Source: an uncultured Faecalibacterium sp.
GTDB lineage: Bacteria > Bacillota > Clostridia > Oscillospirales > Ruminococcaceae
Assembly (NCBI GenBank): GCA_934503275.1
Contig: CAKSVD010000032.1
Span: 1-11,559, forward strand
Direction of reading: 5' to 3'
DNA length: 11,559 nt
Below, piece by piece: positions 1 to 11,559 of the stretch (position 1 is its first letter; each line of letters begins with the position of its first letter). A program made the translations under genes and the position numbers. Under the pieces are notes generated by a model. The model did no database searches and was not told the origin of the DNA. It saw only the letters and a program-made list of their open reading frames with translations.

Positions 1-20
1 GGGTTCGAGTACGAACTGTA

Positions 21-96
21 TGGTGGACGGTACAGGACTCGAACCTGTGACCTCCTGCACGTCAAGCAGATGCTCTACCAGCTGAGCTAACCGTCC
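21..96 (-). tRNA. tRNA-Val, anticodon GAC
   Basis: Read on the - strand this is a complete 76-base cloverleaf. The acceptor stem is GGACGGT paired with ACCGTCC, the D-arm contains AGCTCAGCTGGTAGAGC, and the anticodon stem TCTGC/GCAGG encloses the loop TTGACGT. The T-arm is ACAGG/CCTGT around the loop TTCGAGT. Anticodon GAC decodes GUC/GUU valine codons. The 3' CCA is encoded (bases 21-23), as is common in Firmicutes. It is transcribed away from ruvC, and a TATAAT box lies 28 bases upstream of its 5' end. Bases 1-20 are too short to show whether another tRNA or a terminator follows. Confidence 0.97.
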
Positions 97-123
97 ATAT
101 TCTGTTTTGCCGAAATCAGCTAG

Positions 124-129
124 ATTATA
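124..129 (-). promoter_or_regulatory. Probable -10 box of the tRNA-Val promoter
   Basis: The - strand reads TATAAT here, 27 bases before the mature tRNA 5' end, which leaves room for a short 5' leader. No good TTGACA-like -35 hexamer sits at 16-18 bases: TTGCTT is 20 bases upstream. The -10 assignment rests on the perfect hexamer and its position. The AT-rich tract at 161-190 just upstream could act as an UP-element-like region (inference). Confidence 0.5.
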
Positions 130-162
130 ATACCATACCCTGTGCCGAAAAGCAAGCCCTTT

Positions 163-190
163 TTTCAAAAATTGTAAAACTTTTTTGAAA
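163..190. repeat. AT-rich inverted repeat in the tRNA-Val/ruvC divergent spacer
   Basis: TTTCAAAAA (163-171) and TTTTTGAAA (182-190) are perfect inverted copies separated by 10 bases. They lie between the two divergent promoters. The tract could be an UP-like element, a regulator site or simply an AT-rich palindrome; no known operator consensus was recognised. Confidence 0.4.
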
Positions 191-200
191 GAGCGACCGC

Positions 201-233
201 AAACCCGGCTTCTGTGCGGTGCAGCGCGGGTTT
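201..233. other. GC-rich inverted repeat upstream of the ruvC promoter
   Basis: AAACCCG (201-207) pairs with CGGGTTT (227-233) and encloses a smaller possible CTG/CAG stem. On the + strand it is followed by TTTTGGGG, so it faintly resembles a terminator that would block read-through into ruvC, but the T-run is short. Apart from this, the AT-rich repeat and the two promoters, I see nothing in 97-329. Confidence 0.3.
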
Positions 234-259
234 TGGGGCGGCAGGCGACAGCTTTCTTG

Positions 260-288
260 TTGCCCCCAACCAGACGTTGTGCTATAAT
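260..288 (+). promoter_or_regulatory. Probable sigma-A promoter of ruvC
   Basis: TTGCCC (260-265) and a perfect TATAAT (283-288) are separated by 17 bases, which is the ideal spacing for the housekeeping sigma factor. Transcription would start near 295, about 35 bases before the ruvC ATG at 330. The 9-mer CTATAATAG occurs again at 295-303; the second TATAAT (296-301) has no suitable -35, so the first is preferred. No SOS (LexA/DinR-type) box was recognised by eye. Confidence 0.65.
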
Positions 289-329
289 AGAAAACTATAA
301 TAGGAGTAGTGTCGGAAAGGGAACGCAGC

Positions 330-842
330 ATGAGAGTTTTGGGCATCGACCCCGGTTACGCCATCGTGGGCTGGGGCGTGGTGGAGTATGCGGGCAACCG
401 CTTTGCGCCGGTGGATTTCGGCGCGGTGTGCACGGACGCGGGCGTACCGTTTGAGCGGCGGCTGGACGAGGTGTATACCGGCATCAAGGAGGTCATCGAA
501 CGCACGCAGCCCGAGGTGCTGGCCATCGAAAAGCTGTTCTACCAGCACAACCAGACCACCGTGATCGGCGTAGCCGAGGCGCGCGGGGTCATACTGCTGG
601 CGGCGGCGCAGGCGGGGCTGCCCATCTACGAGTACACCCCCATGCAGGTCAAGCAGGCAGTCACCGGCTACGGCAAGGCCGTGAAAAAGCAGGTGCAGGA
701 GATGACCCGGGTGCTGCTGCATCTGCCCGCCGTGCCAAAGCCGGACGACACCGCCGATGCGCTGGCCATGGCCATTACCTTCTGCCACACCAACGGCAAC
801 CAGCTCAACCGCTACACCCGCCGGGTGGCGGGACCGATTTAA
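330..842 (+). CDS. ruvC: Crossover junction endodeoxyribonuclease RuvC
   Basis: RuvC is the dimeric resolvase that cuts Holliday junctions after RuvAB has moved them. The 170-residue product has the usual family length and RNase H-like fold signatures: LGIDPG at the N-terminus with catalytic D7, the second acidic residue E67 in LAIEKLF, and the C-terminal pair D140/D143 in PDDTADALA. All four expected metal-binding acids are therefore present. The ATG at 330 is chosen because family members begin M-R-I/V-L-G-I-D-P-G. An in-frame GTG at 309 would add seven residues but sits only 2 bases after AGGAG, whereas the ATG has GGAAAGGG about 9 bases before it. It has its own promoter, and ruvA and ruvB follow after a 120-base repeat-filled gap, so co-transcription is likely but not certain. 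Confidence 0.96.
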   Translation: MRVLGIDPGYAIVGWGVVEYAGNRFAPVDFGAVCTDAGVPFERRLDEVYTGIKEVIERTQPEVLAIEKLFYQHNQTTVIGVAEARGVILLAAAQAGLPIYEYTPMQVKQAVTGYGKAVKKQVQEMTRVLLHLPAVPKPDDTADALAMAITFCHTNGNQLNRYTRRVAGPI

Positions 843-868
843 CCGATAAAAAGCTCCCCCTGAGAGGA

Positions 869-918
869 AAGACTTCCCCCGCGCCGGGGGAAGATGTCGC
901 GCAGCGACAAAAGGGGGA
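869..918 (+). repeat. Nested palindromic unit inside the composite element
   Basis: Within the larger element lies a complete smaller unit of the same plan: hairpin 1 CTTCCCCC (873-880) with GGGGGAAG (886-893), hairpin 2 TGTCGC (895-900) with GCGACA (904-909) around the triloop GCA, then a purine tail AAAAGGGGGAA. Its hairpin 2 resembles that of the unit at 3556-3610, read on the - strand, with two base pairs exchanged. It appears to have arisen by insertion into, or replacement of, the hairpin 1 loop of the outer unit (inference). Confidence 0.65.
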
Positions 919-945
919 ATCTGTCAATGCCGTAAGGCATTGACT

Positions 946-952
946 GAGAGGG
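946..952 (+). promoter_or_regulatory. Shine-Dalgarno-like site of ruvA, supplied by the repeat tail
   Basis: GAGAGGG lies 10 bases before the ruvA ATG and is the only SD-like purine run there; its GAGG core could pair with the CCUCC end of 16S rRNA. It is also the conserved tail of the repeat family, found again before truA at 6494-6500 with the same following TTTTAT. The ruvA start is fixed independently by the family's M-I-x-x-L-x-G opening. Confidence 0.6.
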
Positions 953-962
953 TTTTATTCAA

Positions 963-1574
963 ATGATCTACTGTCTGACTGGAAAAATCGTGAAAAAAAG
1001 CCTGAATGCCGTGGTGCTCAGCTGCGGCGGCGTGGGCTACTATACCCAGTGCCCGGCCAGCGTGGCGGGGGCACTGCCCGGTGTGGGGCAGGAAGCTACC
1101 CTGTACACCGTGATGAGCGTGACCGAGAACGATGTAAGCCTGTACGGCTTTGCCACCGAGGAGCAGCAGGCCTGCTTTGAGATGCTGACCGCCGTGTCTG
1201 GCGTGGGCCCCAAGGTGGGGCTGGCCATCCTCAGCGTCATGGAGCCACAGCGGGTGGCGCTGGCTATCTCGGCAGGGGACCACAAGGCCTTTAAAGCCGC
1301 CTCCGGCGTGGGGCCGAAGCTGGCGCAGCGCATCGTGCTGGAACTGAAGGATAAGGTGGCCAAGGGCTTTGTGGACGGCATTTCGCTGGAGGATGTGGCG
1401 GGCTCTGCCGCCGACACGCCCGCGACCCAAAGCAGCGCACAGGCCATTGCGGCGCTGGTGTCGCTGGGCTACAGTCAGAGCGAGGCGGCGCTGGCCATCG
1501 CAAAGATCGATGCCGCGCTGCCGGTGGAAGAGATCATCAAGCTGGCCTTGCGCAGCATGGCAGGCAGGAGGTAA
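963..1574 (+). CDS. ruvA: Holliday junction branch-migration protein RuvA
   Basis: RuvA tetramers hold the four-way junction in a square-planar form and load the RuvB motors. The 203-residue product has the normal length. Residues 1-62 are the OB-fold domain (MIYCLTGKIV opening). Two helix-hairpin-helix DNA-contact motifs follow, with cores SGVGPK at 79-84 and SGVGPKLAQRI at 114-124. A flexible acidic/Ala-rich linker near 140-158 leads to the C-terminal UBA-like domain III (about 159-203), which contacts RuvB. The last two codons, AGG AGG encoding Arg-Arg, are also the Shine-Dalgarno sequence of ruvB, so the end of this protein is partly set by its neighbour's ribosome site. Its own SD is in a repeat tail. 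Confidence 0.97.
   Translation: MIYCLTGKIVKKSLNAVVLSCGGVGYYTQCPASVAGALPGVGQEATLYTVMSVTENDVSLYGFATEEQQACFEMLTAVSGVGPKVGLAILSVMEPQRVALAISAGDHKAFKAASGVGPKLAQRIVLELKDKVAKGFVDGISLEDVAGSAADTPATQSSAQAIAALVSLGYSQSEAALAIAKIDAALPVEEIIKLALRSMAGRR
1566..1571 (+). promoter_or_regulatory. ruvB ribosome binding site inside ruvA
   Basis: A perfect AGGAGG occupies the last two sense codons of ruvA, 6 bases before the ruvB ATG. Ribosomes finishing ruvA stop exactly on this site, which points to translational coupling and matched RuvA:RuvB synthesis. It fixes the ruvB start at 1578 rather than the later in-frame ATGs at 1611 and 1614. Confidence 0.9.
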
Positions 1575-1577
1575 GCA

Positions 1578-2633
1578 ATGCAGGACGATACCGCGCTATA
1601 CGGCGCAAAAATGATGCAGCCCGTCATGACCCCGGCGGACAGTGAGGAAAATAACCTCCGCCCGCAGCATCTGGAGGACTACATCGGGCAGGAAAAGGCC
1701 AAGCAGAACCTGAAGATCTATCTGGAAGCCGCCAAGCGCCGGGGCGAGCCGGTGGATCACATTCTGCTCTACGGCCCGCCGGGTCTGGGCAAGACCACGC
1801 TGGCGGGCATCATTGCCAACGAGATGGGGGTGCAGATCCGCATCACCAGCGGCCCGGCTATTGAAAAGCCCGGTGACCTTGCCGCCCTGCTGACCAACCT
1901 GCAGGAGGGTGATGTGCTGTTCATCGACGAGATCCACCGCCTGTCCCGGCAGGTGGAGGAAGTGCTCTACCCGGCGCTGGAGGACTACGCGCTGGATATT
2001 ATGATCGGCAAGGGTCCCAGCGCCCAGAGCATCCGCATCAATCTGCCCCGGTTTACGCTGGTGGGTGCTACCACCCGCGCCGGACAGATCACCGGCCCTC
2101 TGCGCGACCGCTTCGGCGTGCTGCTCAAGCTGGAACTGTACAGCCCGGACGAGCTTTCCCGCATCATCATGCGGTCGGCGGGCATTCTGGATCAGCCCAT
2201 CACCCCGGAGGGCGCTTACGAACTGGCAAAGTGCAGCCGCGGCACCCCCCGCGTGGCGAACCGCTTTTTGAAGCGCATCCGCGACTTTGCCACCGTGCTG
2301 GGGGACGGCATCATCGATCAGGATGTGGCGCTGCTGGGGCTCAAGCGGATGGACGTGGACGCGCTGGGTCTGGACGAGTTGGACCGCAGCCTGCTGCGCG
2401 CCATCATCGAGATGTACAACGGCGGGCCGGTGGGTCTGGAAACGCTGGCCGCCGCGCTGGGCGAGGAGGCCGTCACACTGGAGGATCTGTGCGAGCCGTA
2501 TCTGATGCAGATGGGCTTTTTGACCCGCACACCGCGCGGACGCTGCGCCACCCGCCTTGCCTACGAGCATCTGGGCATGAAGGCCCCGGAGACCGGCAGC
2601 GCCGAGGAAAACGGCCAGCAAAGCCTGTTCTGA
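1578..2633 (+). CDS. ruvB: Holliday junction branch-migration ATPase RuvB
   Basis: RuvB is the hexameric AAA+ motor that pumps duplex DNA through the RuvA-bound junction. The 351-residue protein is of family length. It opens with a short variable N-terminus, then [14 protein letters not shown] (about 25-38). Walker A is GPPGLGKT (66-73) and Walker B is VLFIDEIH (113-120). Sensor 1 is GATTR (163-167), and the arginine-finger region is LRDRFG (175-180). The C-terminal winged-helix DNA-binding domain covers roughly 270-340, including [10 protein letters not shown]. It starts 3 bases after the ruvA stop. After its TGA comes a short AT-rich stretch, TTATTATATATAGG, that could carry a -10 for the next gene, but no -35 was found. 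Confidence 0.98.
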
Positions 2634-2679
2634 CTTATTATATATAGGATTTTGAAGCAGTAAACGGAAGGAGGACGCT

Positions 2680-3555
2680 ATGCGCCCTGCAGATACTTGG
2701 AAAGACTACGAACTGCTGGATGCCACCGATGGCAACCGGCTGGAACGCTGGGGAGAGACCCTGCTCATCCGCCCCGACCCGCAGGTGGTGTGGAAAACCC
2801 CCAAGCAAAGCCCCCTGTGGGCAAAGGCAGATGCCATCTACCACCGCTCCAATCAGGGCGGCGGCGAGTGGGAGTACCGCCGCCGTCTGCCGGAAAAGTG
2901 GAAGATCAGCTGCGGCGAGGGGGAGGATAAGCTGACCCTCATCGTCAGCCCCACCGGCTTCAAGCACACCGGCGTGTTCCCGGAGCAGGCGGTCAACTGG
3001 GCGTGGTACCAGCAGAAGATCCGCGCCGCGAACCGTCCGGTGAAGGTGCTGAACCTCTTCGGCTACACCGGCGGCGCTACGCTGGCCTGTGCCGCTGCCG
3101 GCGCTACCGTCTGCCATGTGGATGCCTCCAAGGGCATCGTGGCATGGGGCAAGGACAACGCCGTGGCAAGCGGCCTGACCGACAAGCCCATCCGCTGGCT
3201 GGTGGATGACTGCGCCAAGTTTGTGGCGCGGGAAAAGCGCCGCGGCAACACCTACGATGGCATCATCATGGACCCGCCCAGCTACGGGCGCGGCCCCGGC
3301 GGCGAGATCTGGAAGCTGGAGGATTGCATCTACGACCTCATCAGCCAGTGCGAAGAGGTGCTCAGCGATACCCCGCTGTTCTTTGCGGTCAACAGCTACA
3401 CCACCGGCCTGTCCCCGGCGGTCATGGAGTATATGCTCAAGACCACGCTGGTGCCCCGCTTTGGCGGCAAGACCAGCTGCGACGAGATCGGTCTGCCGGT
3501 GTCTGCCACCGGCGGCGTGGTGCCCTGCGGTGCCACTGCCATTTGGGAAGAATAA
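2680..3555 (+). CDS. Class I SAM-dependent methyltransferase, RlmI/RlmK-like
   Basis: This is probably an RNA (rRNA) cytosine/guanine methyltransferase of the COG1092 group; the exact base target cannot be told from sequence. SAM-binding motif I is LNLFGYTGG (124-132). The acidic residue for the ribose is in CHVDAS (145-150), the next motif is LVDDCAKFV (174-182), and motif IV is DPPSYGRGP (198-206). The N-terminal 110 residues form the small beta-rich domain typical of the group (for example TGFKHTGVFPEQ at 92-103), but there is no PUA domain, so at 291 residues it is shorter than E. coli RlmI. The start is set by AAGGAGG 5 bases before the ATG. It lies 46 bases after ruvB and may be read from the same transcript; a repeat unit begins directly after its stop. 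Confidence 0.85.
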   Translation: MRPADTWKDYELLDATDGNRLERWGETLLIRPDPQVVWKTPKQSPLWAKADAIYHRSNQGGGEWEYRRRLPEKWKISCGEGEDKLTLIVSPTGFKHTGVFPEQAVNWAWYQQKIRAANRPVKVLNLFGYTGGATLACAAAGATVCHVDASKGIVAWGKDNAVASGLTDKPIRWLVDDCAKFVAREKRRGNTYDGIIMDPPSYGRGPGGEIWKLEDCIYDLISQCEEVLSDTPLFFAVNSYTTGLSPAVMEYMLKTTLVPRFGGKTSCDEIGLPVSATGGVVPCGATAIWEE

Positions 3556-3610
3556 ATACTCCTTCCGTCATCGCTGCGCGATGCCACCTCCCTCAGTGAG
3601 GGAGGCTTTC
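3556..3610 (-). repeat. Palindromic repeat unit after the methyltransferase gene
   Basis: This unit is in - orientation. Hairpin 1 is CCTCCCTC (3587-3594) with GAGGGAGG (3598-3605), loop AGT. Hairpin 2 is CATCGC (3569-3574) with GCGATG (3578-3583), triloop TGC (GCA on the - strand). The purine tail GGAAGGAGTAT (- strand) touches the methyltransferase stop codon. On the + strand, hairpin 1 is followed by CTTTC, a weak terminator-like ending for the upstream gene. It forms a head-to-head pair with the unit at 3627-3680. Confidence 0.75.
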
Positions 3611-3626
3611 TGACGGCAGAGACCCA

Positions 3627-3680
3627 AGAGGCTCCCTCTTTGAGGGGGCTGCCGCCGCAGGCGGCTGGGGGAGTTTATAA
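3627..3680 (+). repeat. Palindromic repeat unit upstream of ecfA1
   Basis: Hairpin 1 is GCTCCCTC (3631-3638) with GAGGGGGC (3642-3649), including one G-T wobble and the loop TTT. Hairpin 2 is GCCGCC (3651-3656) with GGCGGC (3660-3665), triloop GCA. The tail is TGGGGGAGTTTATAA. Order and spacing match the units at 849 and 6454, but the sequence belongs to another subfamily. The tail is 64 bases from the ecfA1 start, too far to serve as its ribosome site. Confidence 0.75.
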
Positions 3681-3702
3681 AATAATCTAAGAATGGGGTA
3701 CA

Positions 3703-3719
3703 GCCCCTTTCGGAGGGGC
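3703..3719 (+). other. Hairpin in the ecfA1 5' leader
   Basis: GCCCCT (3703-3708) pairs with AGGGGC (3714-3719) around the loop TTCGG. An alternative weaker stem, GGGG (3695-3698) with CCCC (3704-3707), uses the same C-run, so the two cannot form together. There is no T-run after it, hence it is not an ordinary terminator. No known riboswitch was recognised. It may be another small repeat rather than a regulator. Confidence 0.4.
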
Positions 3720-3744
3720 GCACCACCAGAAAGAGAAACAAAGC

Positions 3745-4584
3745 ATGAGTGAAACGATTTTAACTGCTGAAAATTTGAAGTTCCGCTACGATGCCGAGCA
3801 GCCGGTCTACGCGCTGGACGGCGTATCCGTGCAGGTAAAGCGCGGGGAGTTCGTGGCGGTGCTGGGTGCAAACGGCTGCGGTAAATCCACGCTGGCCAAG
3901 CACTTCAATGCCATCCTGCTGCCCGAGAGCGGCAAGGTGTATGTGGAGGGCATGGACACCGCAGACGAGGACAAGCTTTACGATATCCGCCAGACCGTGG
4001 GTATGGTGTTCCAGAACCCGGACAACCAGATCGTAGCCACCGTGGTGGAAGAGGATGTGGCCTTTGCGCTGGAAAACCTCGGCGTGCCGCAGGACGAGAT
4101 GCGCCGCCGGGTGGATGACGCCATGAAGATGGCGGGCATCTACGAATACCGCGAGCGCGCACCCCACAACCTTTCCGGCGGTCAAAAGCAGCGTGTGGCC
4201 ATCGCCGGTGTGGTGGCCATGCGCCCGGACTGCCTGATCTTGGACGAAGCCACCGCCATGCTGGACCCGCGCGGCCGTGAGCAGGTGATGCAGACCATCC
4301 ACTACCTGAACAGGAACATGGGCATCACGGTGGTGTCCATCACCCATTATATGGAAGAGGCCGCACAGGCCGACCGTGTGCTGGTGATGAACAAGGGTCA
4401 TGTGGTGATGGAGGGCACCCCGAAAGAGGTGTTCAGCCAGACCGAAAAGGTGCGTAGCCTGCATCTGGACGTGCCGCAGGCCGCTGAGCTGCGGGACGAG
4501 CTGGTGAAGGCCGGCATCCCGATGCCGGAGGGCATCATCGACACCGGTGCCTGTGCACAGGCGCTGTATGAACTGCTGCAGTAA
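3745..4584 (+). CDS. ecfA1: ECF transporter ATPase EcfA1 (CbiO-type)
   Basis: This is one of the two cytoplasmic ATPases of the ECF energy-coupling module, which drives uptake of vitamins or metal ions with interchangeable S components. The 279-residue ABC protein has Walker A GANGCGKST (41-49) and Q-loop FQNPDNQ (89-95, Q90). The ABC signature is LSGGQKQR (143-150), Walker B is CLILDEAT (163-170) with E168, and the H-loop histidine is H201 in SITHYMEEA. The FQNPDNQIVATVVEEDVAF stretch is the usual EcfA1 form, unlike the FQYPEYQLF form of EcfA2. Residues beyond about 225 form the C-terminal dimerisation region. The SD is poor (AGAAAGAGAAA about 7-10 bases upstream). ecfA2 follows after 14 bases, and no promoter in the leader was convincing. 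Confidence 0.95.
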   Translation: MSETILTAENLKFRYDAEQPVYALDGVSVQVKRGEFVAVLGANGCGKSTLAKHFNAILLPESGKVYVEGMDTADEDKLYDIRQTVGMVFQNPDNQIVATVVEEDVAFALENLGVPQDEMRRRVDDAMKMAGIYEYRERAPHNLSGGQKQRVAIAGVVAMRPDCLILDEATAMLDPRGREQVMQTIHYLNRNMGITVVSITHYMEEAAQADRVLVMNKGHVVMEGTPKEVFSQTEKVRSLHLDVPQAAELRDELVKAGIPMPEGIIDTGACAQALYELLQ

Positions 4585-4598
4585 GGGGGGCGGACGAA

Positions 4599-5513
4599 AT
4601 GGCAGATATCATTAAGGTAGAACATCTGAGTTACGTCTATAACCCCGGCCTGCCCACCGCAGTGACCGCGCTGGATGACGTAAGCTTTACCGTAGAAGAG
4701 GGCGATTTTGTGGGTATCATCGGGGCCACCGGCTCCGGCAAGAGTACCCTCATCACCCACATGAACGGCCTGAATAAGCCCACCAGCGGCAAAATCTACA
4801 TTGACGGACGCGACTTGTGGGCAGACCCGGAAAAGATCCGGGATTTCCGCTTTCTCACCGGGCTGGTGTTCCAGTACCCGGAATACCAGCTGTTTGAGGA
4901 GACCTGCTACAAGGACATCGCCTTTGGCCCCAAGAACATGGGCCTGGACGAAGCCGAGGTAGACCGCCGCGTCCACGAAGCCGCAGACTTTGTGGGCTTA
5001 GACCCGGCGCTTTTGGAGCGCAGCCCCTTTGAACTGTCCGGCGGTCAGAAGCGCCGGGTGGCGGTGGCCGGTGTGATGGCTATGAAGCCCCGCATCCTTG
5101 TGCTGGACGAGCCCGCCGCCGGTCTTGACCCGGAGGGACGGGACGAGATCCTTTCCGAGGTGAAGGAGTACCACAAAAAGACCGGTACCACCGTGCTGCT
5201 GGTGTCCCACAGCATGGAGGATATCGCCAAGTACGCCAACCGCGTGCTGGTGATGAGCAACAAAAAAATTGCCATGTACGACACGGTGGAAAAGATCTTT
5301 GCCCGCGCCCCGGAGTTGCTGGAGCTGGGGCTGTCGGTGCCGCAGGTGACGAAAATTTTCCTCAAGCTGCGGGAGATGGGGGTGGACGTCCCGGCGGACG
5401 TGTACACCGTTCCTTACGCGGTCAAGACCCTGCTGGAAGCCAAGCGCCGCCGCGACGCCGGGGAAAGCCTTGTGCTGCCCCGCAGCGCTGCCCAGAAAGG
5501 GGGTGCTGTCTGA
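4599..5513 (+). CDS. ecfA2: ECF transporter ATPase EcfA2 (CbiO-type)
   Basis: This is the second ATPase of the ECF module and forms the asymmetric dimer with EcfA1. The 304-residue product has Walker A GATGSGKST (42-50) and the EcfA2-type Q-loop FQYPEYQLF (91-99, Q92). The signature is LSGGQKRR (146-153), Walker B is RILVLDEP (165-172) with E171, and H204 lies in LVSHSMED. All catalytic elements are intact. The C-terminus (about 280-304) is a charged tail, AKRRRDAGES onward, somewhat longer than in many homologues (from memory). Its SD-like run AAGGGGGG overlaps the ecfA1 stop codon, suggesting coupling; its own TGA overlaps the ecfT ATG by one base. Confidence 0.95.
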   Translation: MADIIKVEHLSYVYNPGLPTAVTALDDVSFTVEEGDFVGIIGATGSGKSTLITHMNGLNKPTSGKIYIDGRDLWADPEKIRDFRFLTGLVFQYPEYQLFEETCYKDIAFGPKNMGLDEAEVDRRVHEAADFVGLDPALLERSPFELSGGQKRRVAVAGVMAMKPRILVLDEPAAGLDPEGRDEILSEVKEYHKKTGTTVLLVSHSMEDIAKYANRVLVMSNKKIAMYDTVEKIFARAPELLELGLSVPQVTKIFLKLREMGVDVPADVYTVPYAVKTLLEAKRRRDAGESLVLPRSAAQKGGAV

Positions 5514-6328
5514 TGCTGCGAGATATCACCATCGGCCAGCACTTCCCGGGCAACAGTCTGGTGCACCGGTTCGACCCCAGACTGAAGCTTGTGCTGACGG
5601 TCACTTATATCGTGCTGCTGTTTGCAGCCTCCAACCCCCTGGGGCTTACTTTGTCCATCCTCTTTTTGGGGGTCATGTACAAGGTGGCAAAGATCCCGGT
5701 CAAGATGATCGGCAAAAGCCTGAAGCCCATTCTGCCCATCGTGCTGTTCACGGCGGTGCTGAACCTGTTCTTTGTCTCCGGCGAGGGCGACCCGCTGGTG
5801 CATTTCTGGTTCTTGACCATCTACGCCGAGGGCGTGCGCTACGCGGTGCTGATGGCGGTGCGCGTGATGGCGCTCATCGCGGGCACCAGCCTGCTTACCT
5901 ACACCACCAGCCCCATCGTGCTGACCGATGCCATTGAGCAGCTGCTCAAGCCCTTGGGCAAGCTGCACTTCCCGGTGCACGAGCTGGCTATGATGATGAG
6001 CATTGCCCTGCGCTTCATCCCCACCCTCATCGAGGAGACGGATAAGATCATGAACGCACAGAAGGCGCGCGGCGCGCAGCTGGACACCGGCAAGATGACC
6101 GACCGGGTCAAAGCGCTGGTGCCGGTGCTCATTCCGCTGTTCATCTCGGCCTTCCGCCGCGCAGACGAACTGGCTATGGCCATGGAGTGCCGCTGCTACC
6201 GCGGCGGCACGGGCCGCACCCGCCTGAAGGTGCTGCGCTGCGAAAAGCAGGATTATATTGACCTTGCAGTCTGCATTGCCTGCTTTGCCGTCATCCTTGC
6301 CTCCCGGCTGGTGTTCCCGAATTATTAA
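5513..6328 (+). CDS. ecfT: ECF transporter transmembrane coupling protein EcfT
   Basis: EcfT is the membrane scaffold that links the EcfA1/EcfA2 ATPases to swappable S components. The 271-residue protein has hydrophobic segments near 26-58 (probably two), 74-90, 106-132 and 249-266, plus a long cytoplasmic coupling region between them. The first coupling-helix motif is intact as A-R-G at 185-187 (QKARGAQ). The second, usually Ala-Arg-Gly or similar before YRGG, reads C-R-C at 226-228 (AMECRCYRGG). The SD run AAAGGGGG lies 9 bases upstream inside ecfA2, and start and stop overlap as TGATG. No S-component gene is nearby, as expected for a shared (group II) module. A repeat hairpin with a T-run follows the stop. 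Confidence 0.95.
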   Translation: MLRDITIGQHFPGNSLVHRFDPRLKLVLTVTYIVLLFAASNPLGLTLSILFLGVMYKVAKIPVKMIGKSLKPILPIVLFTAVLNLFFVSGEGDPLVHFWFLTIYAEGVRYAVLMAVRVMALIAGTSLLTYTTSPIVLTDAIEQLLKPLGKLHFPVHELAMMMSIALRFIPTLIEETDKIMNAQKARGAQLDTGKMTDRVKALVPVLIPLFISAFRRADELAMAMECRCYRGGTGRTRLKVLRCEKQDYIDLAVCIACFAVILASRLVFPNY

Positions 6329-6336
6329 AAGAGGAG

Positions 6337-6393
6337 AACCCTCTCAGTCAAGGCCTGATGGCCTTGACAGCTCTCCCGAAAGGGGGAGCTTTT
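6337..6393 (-). repeat. Palindromic repeat unit after ecfT (left half of an inverted pair)
   Basis: On the - strand this unit reads AAAGCTCCCCC, then hairpin 1, hairpin 2 and the tail TGAGAGGGTT, as at 6454-6506. Hairpin 1 is AGCTCTCCC (6369-6377) with GGGGGAGCT (6382-6390), one G-T wobble and loop GAAA on the + strand. Hairpin 2 is GTCAAGGCC (6347-6355) with GGCCTTGAC (6360-6368), loop TGAT. Its hairpin 2 matches that of the unit at 849-959 except for one exchanged base pair and the loop. Confidence 0.85.
6369..6393 (+). terminator. Possible intrinsic terminator of the ecfA1-ecfA2-ecfT operon
   Basis: A 9-bp GC-rich stem (6369-6377 with 6382-6390) with a GAAA loop is followed by TTTT, 41 bases after the ecfT stop. 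The T-run is short, so termination may be partial. The hairpin is hairpin 1 of a repeat unit in - orientation, so the terminator appears to come from the repeat. Confidence 0.5.
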
Positions 6394-6419
6394 GCCCGGT
6401 GGACGTAAGGTCTGCTCTT

Positions 6420-6449
6420 TTCAACAGAAGTAGATATTTCCCCTTATAG
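6420..6449 (+). promoter_or_regulatory. Weak candidate promoter for the truA operon
   Basis: TTCAAC (6420-6425) and TTATAG (6444-6449) are 18 bases apart. They sit in the only non-repeat, AT-richer stretch (6394-6453) between the two inverted units and about 60 bases before truA. Both hexamers are imperfect. A promoter here would make sense if the hairpin before it ends the ecf transcript. Confidence 0.25.
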
Positions 6450-6453
6450 CGCA

Positions 6454-6506
6454 TAAAGCTCCCCCTTTCGGGGGAGCTGGCGCGCAAGCGCCTGAGAGGG
6501 TTTTAT
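6454..6506 (+). repeat. Palindromic repeat unit before truA (right half of an inverted pair)
   Basis: This is the cleanest copy. Hairpin 1 is AGCTCCCCC (6457-6465) with GGGGGAGCT (6470-6478), perfect over 9 bp, loop TTTC. Hairpin 2 is GGCGC (6479-6483) with GCGCC (6488-6492), loop GCAA (GNRA type). The tail is TGAGAGGGTTTTATA. With the unit at 6337 it forms a 166-base structure whose ends AACCCTCTCAG (6337-6347) and CTGAGAGGGTT (6492-6502) are perfect 11-bp inverted repeats, resembling a MITE. No transposase gene is present. Confidence 0.85.
6494..6500 (+). promoter_or_regulatory. Shine-Dalgarno-like site of truA, supplied by the repeat tail
   Basis: GAGAGGG lies 9 bases before the truA ATG and is the only purine-rich SD candidate. 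The 13 bases GAGAGGGTTTTAT are identical to those preceding ruvA (946-958), although the two genes are unrelated, because both belong to the repeat tail. Confidence 0.65.
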
Positions 6507-6509
6507 ACT

Positions 6510-7274
6510 ATGAACTTTTTACTTACCCTTGCCTACGACGGCACAAATTACTGCGGCTTTCAGGTGCAGCCCAACGGGCGCAGCGTGGCGGCCACCTTTC
6601 AGGATGCGCTGGAAGCGGTGCTGGGCAGCCGCCCCGATATCAAGGGCTGCAGCCGCACCGATGCCGGGGTGCACGCGCTGGGCTTCCGGTTGAATTTCCA
6701 CGCCGATACCCGCATCCCGCCCCAGAAGCTGCCGCTGGCGCTCAACCAGCATCTGCCGCCGGATATCCGGGTGCTGGCGGCGCAGACCGTGCCGGAGGAC
6801 TTCCACGCCCGGTACGCCGCCCATACCAAGACCTATCTGTACCGCATCCATAATAACCCCATCGACTCGCCCTTTGACGCCGCCTACTACACCCGGGTGC
6901 CCCGGCGGCTGGACGAAGCCGCCATGCAGGCGGCGGCGCAGCAGTTTGTGGGCACGCACGATTTTCTGGCGCTGTGCGCGGCGGGCAGCTCTGCCGCCGC
7001 CCATGGGGACACCGTGCGCACCATCACGGACTGCCGCGTCACCCGGCGCGGGGACGAGGTGGACATTGAGGTGACCGCCGACGGCTACCTGTACAACATG
7101 GTGCGCATTCTGGCGGGCACCTTGTGCGAGGTGGGCGCGGGGCGGATGCGCGCGGCGGACATCCCTGCCATTCTGGCAAGCCGGGACCGCAGCCGGGCGG
7201 GCCCCACTCTGCCCGCAAAGGGCTTGTTTTTAAAGTGTGTGGATTACCCGGAAAGGAAGGAAGAGCAGCTATGA
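6510..7274 (+). CDS. truA: tRNA pseudouridine(38-40) synthase TruA
   Basis: TruA converts uridines 38-40 in the anticodon arm of many tRNAs to pseudouridine. The 254-residue product is of family length. It shows the N-terminal LAYDGTNYCGFQ (7-18), the catalytic aspartate D51 in GCSRTDAGVHA, the KTYLYRI motif (107-113) with its conserved aromatic, FVGTHDF in the second half, the LYNMVRILAGTL motif, and the C-terminal LPAKGLFL. In many Firmicutes truA directly follows ecfT; here that order is kept but a 181-base inverted repeat pair stands between them. Its TGA overlaps the next gene's ATG by 4 bases, so those two genes are probably coupled. Confidence 0.96.
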   Translation: MNFLLTLAYDGTNYCGFQVQPNGRSVAATFQDALEAVLGSRPDIKGCSRTDAGVHALGFRLNFHADTRIPPQKLPLALNQHLPPDIRVLAAQTVPEDFHARYAAHTKTYLYRIHNNPIDSPFDAAYYTRVPRRLDEAAMQAAAQQFVGTHDFLALCAAGSSAAAHGDTVRTITDCRVTRRGDEVDIEVTADGYLYNMVRILAGTLCEVGAGRMRAADIPAILASRDRSRAGPTLPAKGLFLKCVDYPERKEEQL

Positions 7275-8488
7275 AAAAGCTTCATCGCGGCGGCAACCCG
7301 GACGGAGAGCCGCTTTCCGCCGGGCGTGTGGAATATCTGGAGGCAGCGCGCCAGCGGGTGCGCCGCCGCCGTCTGCGCCGCACCGCCATCATTCTGGCGG
7401 CGCTGATACTGGTCACCCTGTTTGCCACCGGCGCGGTGGGTGCATCCATCGCCCGGGTAAAGGACATGGTGGATACGGTGCACATCGCCCTTTCCCCGGC
7501 GGTGGGCTGGCCGCAGCAGACCGGCCTTGGCGATCTGACGGCCGTGCAGCCCATGTCCGGCAGCTTTGTGGCCATGGACGAGGATGCCTGTGCGGTGTAT
7601 AGCCTTGGCGGTACCCGCCTTGCAAGCATCCAGAGCGGCTACGCCCGCCCGGCGCTGGCTGCGGGCAAGACCCGCTTTGTGTTGTATAACCGCTCCGGCA
7701 ACGAGCTGCGGGTGGAAAGCCGCACCCAGAACCTGTATAGCAAAACGCTGGAAAACAACATCTATCTGTGCGCCATGTCGGATACCGGCACGCTGGCAGT
7801 GGCTACCGATTCCGCCGACAGCACCGCCCGGCTGACCGTGTATACCCCCACCATGACGGAGCAGCTGCACTGGGATATGACCGGCACACAGGGCACCCCG
7901 GTGCGGATGGCCTTTGCCGCCGACAGCCGCCGTCTGGCGGTGGCGGCAGTCACCTCCAGTGCCGGACAGCTGCAGGCGAACCTCTTTGTGCTCAGCCTTG
8001 CGCAGGGTGATCCGGTGCAGCTGAACAGCGGGGACAGTGTGCCCCAGTGGCTGGGCTGGCTGAACAACGACACCGTGCTGGCCGTGTACGAAAACTGCGC
8101 CGTGGTGTACGGCGCGGAAGGCGGCGAGCGCGGGCGCTTTGATTTTGGCGGCGGCAGCCTTGTCAGCGTTTCGCAGGACGGCGCAAACGCCGCCCTGTTG
8201 CTGGAAAACGGACAGGTGTGCACCGCCGTGCTGCTGGATAAGGACCTGAACGTGCAGTACAGCGGCAACGTGCCTGCGGCAAATCGGATCCTGCGCCGGG
8301 GCGAAAACTTTTATCTGCTTACCGACAGCGGTGTGGAATGCTTTGCCGCAGATGGGGTGTATCAGTGGGGACAGGAACTTTCCGTCCGTCCGCAGGCGCT
8401 CATCGCGGGCAAGCAGCTGCTGGTGCTGTGCGGCAACACGGTGCAGCAGATCGCTCCGCCGGAGCAAACGGCCTCCAGCGCCCGGTGA
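7271..8488 (+). CDS. Membrane-anchored propeller-like protein, DUF5711 type
   Basis: The function is unknown. The 405-residue product has a cytoplasmic, strongly basic N-terminus (RQRVRRRRLRR at about 27-37), then one transmembrane helix at about 38-59. About 340 residues follow, predicted outside the membrane by the positive-inside rule. These are built of repeating beta-rich segments (for example LTVYTPTMTEQLHW and FDFGGGSLVSVSQDGANAALLL) that suggest a beta-propeller. The segment ELRVESRTQNLYSKTLENNIYL... resembles DUF5711 proteins of Clostridia (from memory). The ATG at 7271 is chosen over an upstream in-frame start at 7124 because the latter would overlap the conserved end of truA in another frame; AGGAAGGAAGAG precedes 7271. 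A cvpA-like gene follows after 60 bases, so a cell-envelope role is plausible but unproven. Confidence 0.75.
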   Translation: MKKLHRGGNPDGEPLSAGRVEYLEAARQRVRRRRLRRTAIILAALILVTLFATGAVGASIARVKDMVDTVHIALSPAVGWPQQTGLGDLTAVQPMSGSFVAMDEDACAVYSLGGTRLASIQSGYARPALAAGKTRFVLYNRSGNELRVESRTQNLYSKTLENNIYLCAMSDTGTLAVATDSADSTARLTVYTPTMTEQLHWDMTGTQGTPVRMAFAADSRRLAVAAVTSSAGQLQANLFVLSLAQGDPVQLNSGDSVPQWLGWLNNDTVLAVYENCAVVYGAEGGERGRFDFGGGSLVSVSQDGANAALLLENGQVCTAVLLDKDLNVQYSGNVPAANRILRRGENFYLLTDSGVECFAADGVYQWGQELSVRPQALIAGKQLLVLCGNTVQQIAPPEQTASSAR

Positions 8489-8548
8489 ATGAGGGGGAAA
8501 CCGGTATTTTTGCGGGGAAAGTGATCTTTATAACAGGGAAAACAAGAT

Positions 8549-9244
8549 ATGTTCAAGAATCCGTCATTTCTTTTTGATATCCTATGTACGGTAGTCTGGC
8601 TGGTGCTGATGGTGCGCTACGCCCGCAAGGGCTTTCTGGCGTCCATCGTGCAGCTGTCCGGCAACCTCATCAGCCTGCTGGGCGCACGGCAGCTTTCTGC
8701 CGCCTGCGCTGGCTGGGTGTTCGAAAATCTGCTGGCCGGGGGCTTCCGTACCCAGATCGCCGCCCACCTTTCGGAGGACGGCGTGGTGAACCTTTCCGGC
8801 ATTGCGCAGCAGTACGCGGGCTTTCTGCCCGCAAGCTTCCGCGCCTCCATCGTGGCGGCGTGCGAGCGCAGCATCAACGCCGTGCTGGCAGATAACGCTG
8901 TGGTGCTGGCCGATACCATCGTTGAAAAAGTATTGCAGCCGCTGCTCACCCCGGTGATCATGCTGGTGCTGTTCTTTGTGTTCTACGCGGTGCTGCGGCT
9001 GCTGGTCAGTATGCTGGTCACCGTGCTGGGGCTGGTGAACAAGCTGCCGGTCATTGGTACTGTCAACCGGGGTCTGGGCTGGCTGACCGGCGGTATGACC
9101 GCTCTGCTGGACTTATACCTCGTGCTGTGCGTGGTGTGGGGCCTTGTGGTCATCACCGGCGGCAACTTAAATGTGCTCAACGACACTGTAATGCACAGCA
9201 GTCTTTACTATAAAGCGTTTAATGTGTTCAACCCCTTTTTGTAA
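8549..9244 (+). CDS. CvpA-family membrane protein
   Basis: The 231-residue protein has hydrophobic segments near 8-24, 28-50, 130-165 and 183-203, and an amphipathic central stretch. The late motif LPVIGTVNRGLGWLTGG (about 167-183) is the characteristic CvpA block, N-R-x-L-G-x-x-x-G. The family is named for a gene needed for colicin V production in E. coli, but most members are general envelope proteins of unclear role. An AGGGAA run 8 bases before the ATG is a modest SD. The 60 bases since the previous gene are purine- and AT-richer, with no convincing promoter. The ClpE-like gene begins 21 bases after its stop, suggesting one operon. Confidence 0.8.
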   Translation: MFKNPSFLFDILCTVVWLVLMVRYARKGFLASIVQLSGNLISLLGARQLSAACAGWVFENLLAGGFRTQIAAHLSEDGVVNLSGIAQQYAGFLPASFRASIVAACERSINAVLADNAVVLADTIVEKVLQPLLTPVIMLVLFFVFYAVLRLLVSMLVTVLGLVNKLPVIGTVNRGLGWLTGGMTALLDLYLVLCVVWGLVVITGGNLNVLNDTVMHSSLYYKAFNVFNPFL

Positions 9245-9265
9245 CAGGGGCGACAAGGAGGAACT

Positions 9266-11559
9266 ATGGTCTGTATTCGATGCCAGAAGCGTCCGGCGAT
9301 CATCTTTATCCAGCGGATGGAGAATGGTCAGATGAAGCAGGAGGGGTACTGTCTGCACTGTGCCCGGGAACTGCACATCAAACCCGTGGACGATCTGATG
9401 AAACAATTCGGGATGTCGGAGCAGGATCTGGATAACATGGAAAACCGCATGGAGAGCATGATGGAGGAGATGGGTGATTCCAACCCCCTTTCCATGCTGA
9501 TGAATATGTCCGCTAGCGGCGAGGATGCCGACGCGGAGAACATGGACGAGGATCTTGTACCCGGCAGCAATGCCACCTTCCCGCTGGGCTTTACCGGCAC
9601 GGAGAAGCAGGACGGCGAAAAAAAGGCCGACCACAAGAGCGGCAAAAAGCCGCCCAAGCGCAAGTTTTTGGATACCTACTGCGAAAACCTGACCCGCAAG
9701 GCGCGGGAGGGCAAGCTGGATGATATCATCGGCCGCGACCGCGAGATCTACCGCACCATCCAGATCTTGAGCCGCCGCCAGAAGAATAACCCCTGCCTTA
9801 TCGGTGAAGCCGGTGTGGGCAAGACTGCCATCGCCGAGGGCATTGCCGAGCGCATTGCCAAGGGACAGGTGCCCATCGGTCTGCGGGATAAGGAAATTTT
9901 TCTGCTCGACCTCACCAGCCTTGTGGCGGGCACCCAGTTCCGCGGCCAGTTCGAGCAGCGGGTCAAGGGCTTGCTGAGCGAGGTAAAGGCTGCGGGCAAC
10001 GTCATCCTGTTCATCGACGAGATCCACACCATCACCTCTGCCGGTGAGAGCGAGGGCGCCATGAACGCGGGCAACATCTTAAAGCCCGCCCTTTCCCGTG
10101 GCGAAATTCAGGTCATCGGTGCCACCACCTTTACCGAGTACCGCAAGTACATCGAAAAAGATCAGGCGCTGGAGCGCCGCTTCCAGCCTGTGCGGGTGGA
10201 GGAGCCCAGCGTAGCCGACACCCTTGCCGTGATGAACGGCATCAAGCGCTACTACGAGCAGCACCATCATGTGCAGGTGCCCGCCGAGGTGCTTTCGGCG
10301 GTGGTCACCCTGAGCGAGCGCTATATCACCGACCGTTTTTTGCCGGATAAGGCCATCGACCTGCTGGACGAAGCCTGCGCCTGCTGCAATCTGGCGCACC
10401 CGGTCATCTCCGAGTATCTGGGGATGCAGAAGGAGTTGGACGCCCTGAAGCAGGAAGAAGCCGAGATGGAAAGCACGGATGTGAACGAGGCCATCGACTA
10501 CGAGCGCGTAGCCGAGCGCAAGACCCGCATCGCCAAGCTGGAATCCGAACTGCCCGCCAAGCAGGCTGCTGCCAGCGAAATCCAAGTGACCATGGACGAT
10601 GTGGCCAAGGTCATCGAGCTGTGGACGGGTATCCCGGCGGTGAAAATTCGCGAGACCGAGTTCGTCAAGCTGGCCGGGCTGGAAAACGCGCTCAAGCAGA
10701 AGGTCATCGGTCAGGACGAAGCCGTGCATCTGGTGGCGCAGGCCATCAAGCGCAGCCGCGCCGACCTTTCCGGCCGCCGCCGTCCCGCAAGCTTCATCTT
10801 TGTGGGCCCCACCGGCGTGGGCAAGACTGAACTGGTCAAGCAGCTGGCAGAGCAGTTGTTCGACGGCCCCGACCCGCTTATCCGTCTGGACATGAGCGAG
10901 TACATGGAAAAATACGCGGTGTCCCGTATGATCGGTTCGCCTCCGGGCTATGTGGGCTACGAGGAAGCCGGTCAGCTGACCGAGAAGGTGCGCCGCCGCC
11001 CGTACAGCGTGGTGCTGTTTGACGAGATCGAAAAGGCACACCCGGATGTGATGAACATCCTGCTGCAAATTCTGGATGAGGGCAAGATCAACGATGCGCA
11101 GGGACGCACGGTGGATTTTTCCAACACAGTCATCTGCATGACCTCCAACGCCGGCAGCAGCGACCAGAGCGCGGGCAGCCTTGGCTTTAACAAGAGCGAG
11201 GCGCAGCGCAGCGAGGAAAAGACCCGCAAGGCACTGGCGCAGTTCCTGCGCCCGGAGTTCCTTGGCCGCGTGGATGAAGTGATCGCCTTCAAGCCCCTGA
11301 CCGAACAGACCCTGCAGGGCATCGCCGCCCTGATGCTGGACGAGTACAAGCCCGGCATGGAAGCCAAGGGCATCGCTTACAGCTACACCCCGGCAGCGCT
11401 CAAGGCACTGGTGCAAAAGAGTCAGGGCGGGCGCTTTGGTGCGCGCGATTTGCGCCGCACCATCCGCAAGGCGGTGGAGGACCCCGCCGCCGAGCGCCTC
11501 ATCGACGGCACGCTGGCATCCGGCGGCACCCTTGTGGTGGATGCCGATGAAAACGGCGA
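9266..11559 (+). CDS. ClpE/ClpC-type AAA+ unfoldase with N-terminal zinc ribbon (3' end outside window)
   Basis: This is an open frame of 764 codons with no stop, starting after a strong AAGGAGGA site. Such proteins unfold substrates and feed them to ClpP. In order: a zinc ribbon with C3-x2-C6 and C29-x2-C32, like ClpE and McsA; a Met-rich acidic linker (about 45-125); AAA domain 1 with Walker A GEAGVGKT (180-187), Walker B VILFIDE (246-252) and sensor GATT; a short coiled-coil middle domain (about 383-438); AAA domain 2 with GPTGVGKT (514-521) and VVLFDE (582-587); a ClpP-docking loop L-G-F (639-641); and the start of the C-terminal small domain. The double Clp-N repeat of ClpC is missing, so ClpE-like is the better call. 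No CtsR operator was recognised upstream. Confidence 0.9.
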   Translation, partial: MVCIRCQKRPAIIFIQRMENGQMKQEGYCLHCARELHIKPVDDLMKQFGMSEQDLDNMENRMESMMEEMGDSNPLSMLMNMSASGEDADAENMDEDLVPGSNATFPLGFTGTEKQDGEKKADHKSGKKPPKRKFLDTYCENLTRKAREGKLDDIIGRDREIYRTIQILSRRQKNNPCLIGEAGVGKTAIAEGIAERIAKGQVPIGLRDKEIFLLDLTSLVAGTQFRGQFEQRVKGLLSEVKAAGNVILFIDEIHTITSAGESEGAMNAGNILKPALSRGEIQVIGATTFTEYRKYIEKDQALERRFQPVRVEEPSVADTLAVMNGIKRYYEQHHHVQVPAEVLSAVVTLSERYITDRFLPDKAIDLLDEACACCNLAHPVISEYLGMQKELDALKQEEAEMESTDVNEAIDYERVAERKTRIAKLESELPAKQAAASEIQVTMDDVAKVIELWTGIPAVKIRETEFVKLAGLENALKQKVIGQDEAVHLVAQAIKRSRADLSGRRRPASFIFVGPTGVGKTELVKQLAEQLFDGPDPLIRLDMSEYMEKYAVSRMIGSPPGYVGYEEAGQLTEKVRRRPYSVVLFDEIEKAHPDVMNILLQILDEGKINDAQGRTVDFSNTVICMTSNAGSSDQSAGSLGFNKSEAQRSEEKTRKALAQFLRPEFLGRVDEVIAFKPLTEQTLQGIAALMLDEYKPGMEAKGIAYSYTPAALKALVQKSQGGRFGARDLRRTIRKAVEDPAAERLIDGTLASGGTLVVDADENG

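Follow-up and report, generated by a model that had tools for sequence, protein, structure and literature searches.

Mobile repeats are known to bring promoters and terminators. Ribosome binding sites (RBSs) sequestered by hairpins (PMC2988022) or split by intervening RNA (PMC3014915) are documented in T4. In the main text available of a review of prokaryotic miniature inverted-repeat transposable elements (MITEs), neither 'ribosome' nor 'Shine-Dalgarno' appears (PMC10969869). Similarly, the main text available of a catalogue of GTAG- and CGTC-tagged repetitive extragenic palindromic (REP) sequences does not mention Faecalibacterium, Clostridi- or Firmicutes (PMC3733652). Among the matches listed from open-licence PMC articles, we found no paper on the Faecalibacterium repeats described here or on a Shine-Dalgarno (SD) sequence donated by a repeat. 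We analysed 11,559 nt of DNA from an uncultured Faecalibacterium sp. (assembly GCA_934503275.1, contig CAKSVD010000032.1, positions 1–11,559 of the forward strand; hereafter the window). Here, a dispersed palindromic repeat ends just ahead of both ruvA and truA. Judged from sequence comparison, a minority of such repeat ends have probably been co-opted as RBSs; this is not a rule.

Repeat ends ahead of ruvA, truA and other genes

The 13-mer GAGAGGGTTTTAT occurs exactly at 946–958 and 6494–6506 on the + strand, as a sequence-only reading of the window had reported. It ends 4 bases before the ATG of ruvA (963–1574, + strand) and 3 before that of truA (6510–7274, + strand). Four matches with three or fewer mismatches were found in the window; 200 shuffles gave a mean of 1.07, and five of them reached four. 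Both start codons are fixed by family alignment, again as proposed. Residue 1 of RuvA aligns with position 1 of TIGR00084 (195.5 bits) and residue 3 of TruA with position 3 of TIGR00071 (181.2 bits). The GAGG cores, at 948–951 and 6496–6499, are 11 and 10 nt from the respective ATGs. At both genes, the SD duplex energy between −4 and −18 is −6.3 kcal/mol. The same reading took the 13-mers for repeat tails carrying the sole SD-like run. Both do end repeat units, but in other copies the sequence differs beyond GAGAGGGTT (946–954 and 6494–6502, + strand). Hence, the TTAT that closes both 13-mers belongs to the flanks. The tail is also the sole SD-like run between −4 and −18, but a native SD-like sequence, AAGAGGAG (6329–6336, + strand), lies just left of the truA element.

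We compared 15 ruvA sequences from the clade, the window and L205–L218 (relatives were taken as one genome per species; one of the 31 genomes, G032, yielded no ruvA locus). All 15 have an SD with an energy of −5.5 or lower, and in 12 the tail is that SD. In these 12, GAGG is 4–11 nt from the ATG: 4–7 nt in ten, and 11 nt, the longest spacing, in the window and L206. Pairing with the anti-SD is possible, by sequence, at this distance from a fixed start. In L215 and L216 the GAGG of the tail is 40 and 22 nt from the ATG and another SD is present. The repeat is absent from L218, where the gap is 10 nt and the SD overlaps the ruvC stop (TGAGGTTG). In 16 outgroup loci, ruvA has other SDs (−5.6 to −12.4), mostly stronger.

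The rest of the ruvA repeat is far from constant. Gaps between the ruvC stop and the ruvA start span 52–258 nt (258 nt in L208). L205 and L207 have a 52-nt gap with one small hairpin, the second half has decayed in L209–L211 and L214, and 8 of the 12 copies lack the CCCTCTC left end. In the window, the right half of a repeat, lacking a complementary left-end partner, occupies 849–954 (+ strand). It comprises hairpin 1 (GCTCCCCC...GGGGGAAT), whose loop contains a nested hairpin block (approximately 861–912), then hairpin 2 (923–944), then the tail. The nested block (TGAGAGGAAAGACTTCCCCCG...GACAAAAGG) is found in the hairpin-1 loop at ruvA in the window (861–912) and at truA in L177 and L179, where the same composite loop precedes the gene. 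The arrangement resembles the insertion of a smaller repeat into the larger one.

As a control for retention, we sampled stretches regardless of the tail. None of 12 orthologues with native SDs shared it; one script-flagged match among the 12 was, in our judgement, a native SD that the two genomes share. Conversely, the ruvA tail is found in both G001 and Faecalibacterium sp. I4-1-79 (Fisher 0.011 against the control, from typed counts). G042 is seemingly rich in recent copies, and L003 and L005, chosen for the tail, do share it; with this caveat, the control weakly favours ruvA. We conclude that the tail likely serves as the SD of ruvA.

At truA the case is weak. The upstream gene is ecfT/cbiQ-like (5513–6328, stop 6326–6328, + strand; TIGR02454, 104.4 bits, below the cut-off of 111.8). 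Its product is 99% identical to EcfT of I4-1-79. Next comes AAGAGGAG, which is cut off from truA: between it and TTATACT-ATG stands the element, here a complete inverted pair of 166 bp (6337–6502, + strand). The left end of the pair, AACCCTCTCAG (6337–6347), is complementary to the tail, and the right end is CTGAGAGGGTT (6492–6502). The truA clade set also numbered 15 sequences (the window and L175–L188). Three carry this tail at 10 nt, and four have another repeat subfamily with its tail, GGAAGGAG, beside the ATG (−8.9). Hence, two repeat subfamilies reached the same place. In L186 the site is empty and the gap measures 7 nt. Other insertions, different in sequence, lie between ecfT and truA in L175, L176, L178, L180, L187 and L188; the junction seems to collect insertions. 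In L187 (G014:C1:2384201-2384956) truA is reported with one in-frame TAA. Scans of 6200–6600 for promoter and terminator consensus sequences found nothing.

The clearest evidence that an insertion can remove the native signal comes from single pairs of sites at fabK and hisC. The empty fabK site in G002 reads AAAGGATAAAGACC-ATG, with the SD within the final codons of the gene before it. In the filled site (L240, genome G039) the repeat stands in place of the SD, and the GAGG of its tail is 8 nt from the ATG. The gene upstream of fabK in L240 apparently ends inside the repeat, which supplies its last codons. For hisC, G042 has the repeat yet retains GCCGGAGGAACCATT. In L241 (G040) the repeat touches both stop and start, with the GAGG of the tail 8 nt away. 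The sequence-only suggestion that insertion replaced the native signal finds support at fabK. Further starts with a tail at SD distance belong to maf and a response regulator gene; no empty site was found for either in the pool searched.

The repeat family and its place between genes

Across 31 genomes of the genus, CTGAGAGGGTT has 426 copies against 5 for the reversed control (totals summed from a table), and it is present in 20. Exact tail copies range from 0 to 107 per genome, with G042 (107) and G040 (82) the richest. In other copies the right half reads AAGCTCCCCCTTTCGGGGGAGCTGGC-[hairpin]-GACTGAGAGGGTT and is variable; a regular expression for such halves matched 23 times in G002 (1.2 Mb searched) and 5 times in G001 (0.4 Mb). 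For closer inspection we used parts of three genomes, 2.4 Mb in all. Here, 32 inward pairs AACCCTCTCAG...CTGAGAGGGTT were found (30 distinct right ends), in addition to the window copy. No outward pairs within 400 bp were found in this sample or the window. The 32 elements are 45–251 bp, non-coding, with inverted ends, and lie beside genes.

Among 14-nt flanks of 33 pairs, inspected by eye, no consistent target-site duplication was seen, with one possible case (TTGCGGGGA). No parent insertion sequence was seen among pairs 400–4500 bp apart in the 2.4 Mb; the genes these enclose were judged by eye, from the first 120 residues, not to be transposases. The Y1_Tnp family (PF01797) matched in three of seven genomes searched (G041, G042 and G029, the G029 copy being cut by a stop). 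It was not found in G001, G040, G027 or G013, of which G040 is copy-rich with its 82 tails. These matches do not establish a link to REP-associated tyrosine transposases (RAYTs). The plasmid collection searched held no match to the element. In the phage collection, 14 unannotated 'Bacteriophage sp.' records match; the eight listed are from human stool, and seven of these cover only approximately the first 60 bases.

Where do the tails lie? The sequence-only reading had expected clustering at SD distance genome-wide, and had made this its own test. No such clustering was found: ATGs 0–9, 10–19 and 20–29 nt past the tail end number 35, 44 and 104 in the 31 genomes, with tails facing several ATGs counted repeatedly and some ATGs not being starts. 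(By matching coordinates, G041 and G002 are apparently one assembly, as are G039 and G003; of these four, only G041 and G039 enter the 31-genome counts.) Thirty of the 35 ATGs at 0–9 nt were given loci. By script and reading, nine of the 30 are real starts: ruvA (L246, L249 and, by reading, L245), truA (L242, L254), fabK (L240), hisC (L241), maf (L252) and the response regulator (L237). For L237, L240 and L246 the tail-side ATG was taken from protein families, the codon-score caller not having returned it. In the other 21 the tail faces a stop codon, sits in another gene, or precedes a true start further downstream. Of the five without loci, one again resembles fabK by its matched string.

In the 2.4 Mb sample, 1,700 genes were called by codon score without RBS information. 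Apart from those of ruvA and truA, start assignments depend on codon scores and on matches to protein families. There are 83 tails of type T1 and 8 of type T2. Twenty are no more than 45 nt from a called start, 18 of these in G042. Eighteen of the 20 have spacers of 13–38 nt; the exceptions are ruvA and truA in G042, a different species from that of the window. The 18 genes with longer spacers have a median SD energy of −7.55, compared with −3.5 for shuffled sequence. Sixteen are at or below −5.5, each with a clear native SD, and two are weak (−3.3 and −3.5). Four places matching GGATCACCTCC, the 16S 3′ end, all continue as CCTCCTTTCT. Of the other tail types (T3, T4 and T5, with 2, 2 and 22 copies in the sample), none is within 60 nt of a start.

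Complete elements lie between co-directional genes in 21 of 30 cases. For 13 of these both flanks are under 65 nt, and the start side is the longer in 12 (p 0.003; the subset was picked after viewing the list, and the eight left out have larger gaps). In these 13 the median flank is 6 nt on the stop side and 23 nt on the start side. In the full set of 21 the start side exceeds the other in 15 cases, not a significant excess when taken alone. On the sequences compared, the usual position of the repeat is directly ahead of a gene's own translation signal.

A third inverted element of the window, apparently related and possibly of another subfamily (ACTCCTTCCGTC...GGCTGGGGGAGTTT; 3558–3676, + strand), was read in the sequence. 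It begins 2 nt after a stop at 3555 and ends 68 nt before the ATG at 3745 of an ATP-binding transporter gene. Rfam gave a 28.9-bit match on it (3578–3658; cut-off 97). Of the four window matches to Rfam at E <= 1, only a tRNA reaches the gathering score, and none does so for the element. This tRNA gene (RF00005; 24–96, − strand) lies just upstream of ruvC.

How a repeat end might become an initiation signal

The explanation we favour, and regard as fairly probable, is insertion beside a stop codon, with occasional loss of the SD and co-option of the tail. Complete copies in short co-directional gaps mostly sit within approximately 10 nt of the upstream stop. So placed, the element leaves the downstream gene its own SD, and insertion would hence be tolerated. 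In gaps short enough for the native SD to fall at or inside the upstream stop, insertion at this point would remove or displace it. This is seen for fabK in one pair and is presumed elsewhere. Copies surviving there have a purine tail (GAGAGGG, or GGAAGGAG in the other subfamily) near the ATG. Such tails can pair with the anti-SD CCUCC and may initiate translation. At ruvA, the co-opted SD has been kept while the remaining element was lost, swapped or decayed, presumably under selection. For truA, the tail is one candidate signal among others, and would be buried once the element folds shut. Initiation would then need ribosomes finishing ecfT to open the element, a step we infer from the RNA-unfolding model of coupling as a review presents it in the text available (PMC12548453). 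Alternatively, truA would use the displaced GAGGAG at the hairpin foot.

The tail could instead have no part in translation. Its match to an SD would be incidental, and ruvA and truA would be translated by coupling to ruvC and ecfT. We think this rather unlikely, although several observations do weigh against co-option. ATGs do not cluster at SD distance, and most tails face stops, are far from starts or lie beyond a native SD. As an SD the tail is mediocre: GAGG alone pairs, at −6.3 compared with a median of −8.3 over 599 genes. Eight of the 15 truA clade sequences have no SD between −4 and −18 (−0.3 or weaker); L175, L176 and L178 of these have GGAGG 18 nt away, and L185 has the tail 23 nt away. 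Thus, truA persists in the clade also without a near SD, and for this gene the sequence-only claim that the tail is kept for use is not supported. That reading also thought that the hairpin might help initiation. The predicted folds of naked RNA give this no support. At truA the tail is buried: its unpaired probability is 0.00 in L177 and L179 as well as in the window. Partial pairing is predicted at ruvA, with a mean unpaired probability of 0.30 in the window and values below 0.5 in 11 of the 12 sequences (0.00–0.43; L213 has 0.66), which argues against easy initiation. In the outgroup locus L230, the native SD region itself contains CTGAGAGGG with no visible repeat; hence, chance resemblance to the tail does occur. 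Since the tail is the family consensus, its constancy at ruvA could partly be homogenisation by fresh copies. Furthermore, coupling is possible without an SD, according to the part of the review available (PMC12548453). Conversely, all 15 ruvA sequences have an SD, which is the tail in 12 and mostly 4–7 nt from the start. The same source describes coupling as most efficient at small distances, for which ruvC–ruvA gaps of 52–258 nt are long.

Modelling allows a bolder view, which we hold to be distinctly unlikely. The element might be translationally self-effacing: its paired ends would fold the insert out of the mRNA and bring the upstream stop, with any displaced SD, back near the next start, and the tail within the closing stem would be a spare SD freed by the terminating ribosome. 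Predicted folds place stop and start 6–14 steps apart in 7 of 15 truA and 4 of 15 ruvA clade sequences. If this were true, palindromic repeats could spread even where the gaps within an operon are very short, protected by two safety devices, end closure and the SD-like tail.

A split RBS at truA is less credible still, and we consider it improbable. Here, folding of the element would bring the truA ATG up to the displaced native GAGGAG, and the tail would be the closing strand only. The RNA fold of the element is predicted at −108.7 kcal/mol (z −9.7), with paired ends and the tail fully paired to the left end. This sets the ecfT stop 6 steps from the truA ATG in the window. A GAGGAG or AAGGAG directly abuts the left end in L176–L179 as in the window, and T4 genes 25 and 38 offer a precedent in the text available (PMC3014915). 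However, L176 and L178 have GAGGAG and the left half only, without the tail half, and their stop and ATG are 30–31 steps apart in the prediction. L175 lacks such an SD, and 8 of 12 ruvA copies lack the CCCTCTC left end. Moreover, any inverted pair would be expected to close end to end, and the step counts come without a shuffled control.

It is most improbable that native ruvA SDs were tail-like, repeats having inserted into or recombined with them and the purine run being host sequence; outgroup starts such as CTGAGAGGGAGGGG (L230) and CTGAGAGAGGAG (L225) fit this, but in several clade copies what precedes the tail (hairpin 2, TTGACT) belongs to the repeat, GACTGAGAGGGTT also ends copies elsewhere, and L218 is near to an in-clade empty site with a different SD.

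Should co-option after insertion beside a stop be correct, the repeated gift of an RBS, the empty and filled sites of sister species and a positional rule predicting its occurrence would form a natural experiment on how bacterial operons survive insertions. Gene finders will take these repeat ends for ordinary SDs.

Comparison with described systems

The element is a non-coding palindromic repeat of Faecalibacterium, REP- and MITE-like. As in REPs, REP doublets forming hairpins (REPINs) and bacterial interspersed mosaic elements (BIMEs), short palindromic intergenic units occur in many copies, often as inverted pairs with a variable spacer. In contrast to those systems, Y1_Tnp was found in three of seven genomes searched, and not in copy-rich G040. 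Bacterial MITEs are likewise short, non-coding, multicopy elements with inverted ends, as are these elements of 45–251 bp beside genes. The difference is that neither a parent insertion sequence nor a consistent target duplication was seen in the 2.4 Mb sample.

The predicted structures recall two translational systems. For T4 genes 25 and 38, split initiation rests on mutation, reporters and probing in the text available (PMC3014915), whereas here there is a prediction for one gene with a 166-bp repeat. In either case, an RNA fold placed between SD and AUG brings the two closer, here by prediction. RNA-unfolding coupling, as far as the review text available describes it (PMC12548453), differs in that the hairpin here is a dispersed repeat and is predicted only. 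The likeness lies in the arrangement: the SD is part of a hairpin, and the strand opposite it adjoins the upstream stop.

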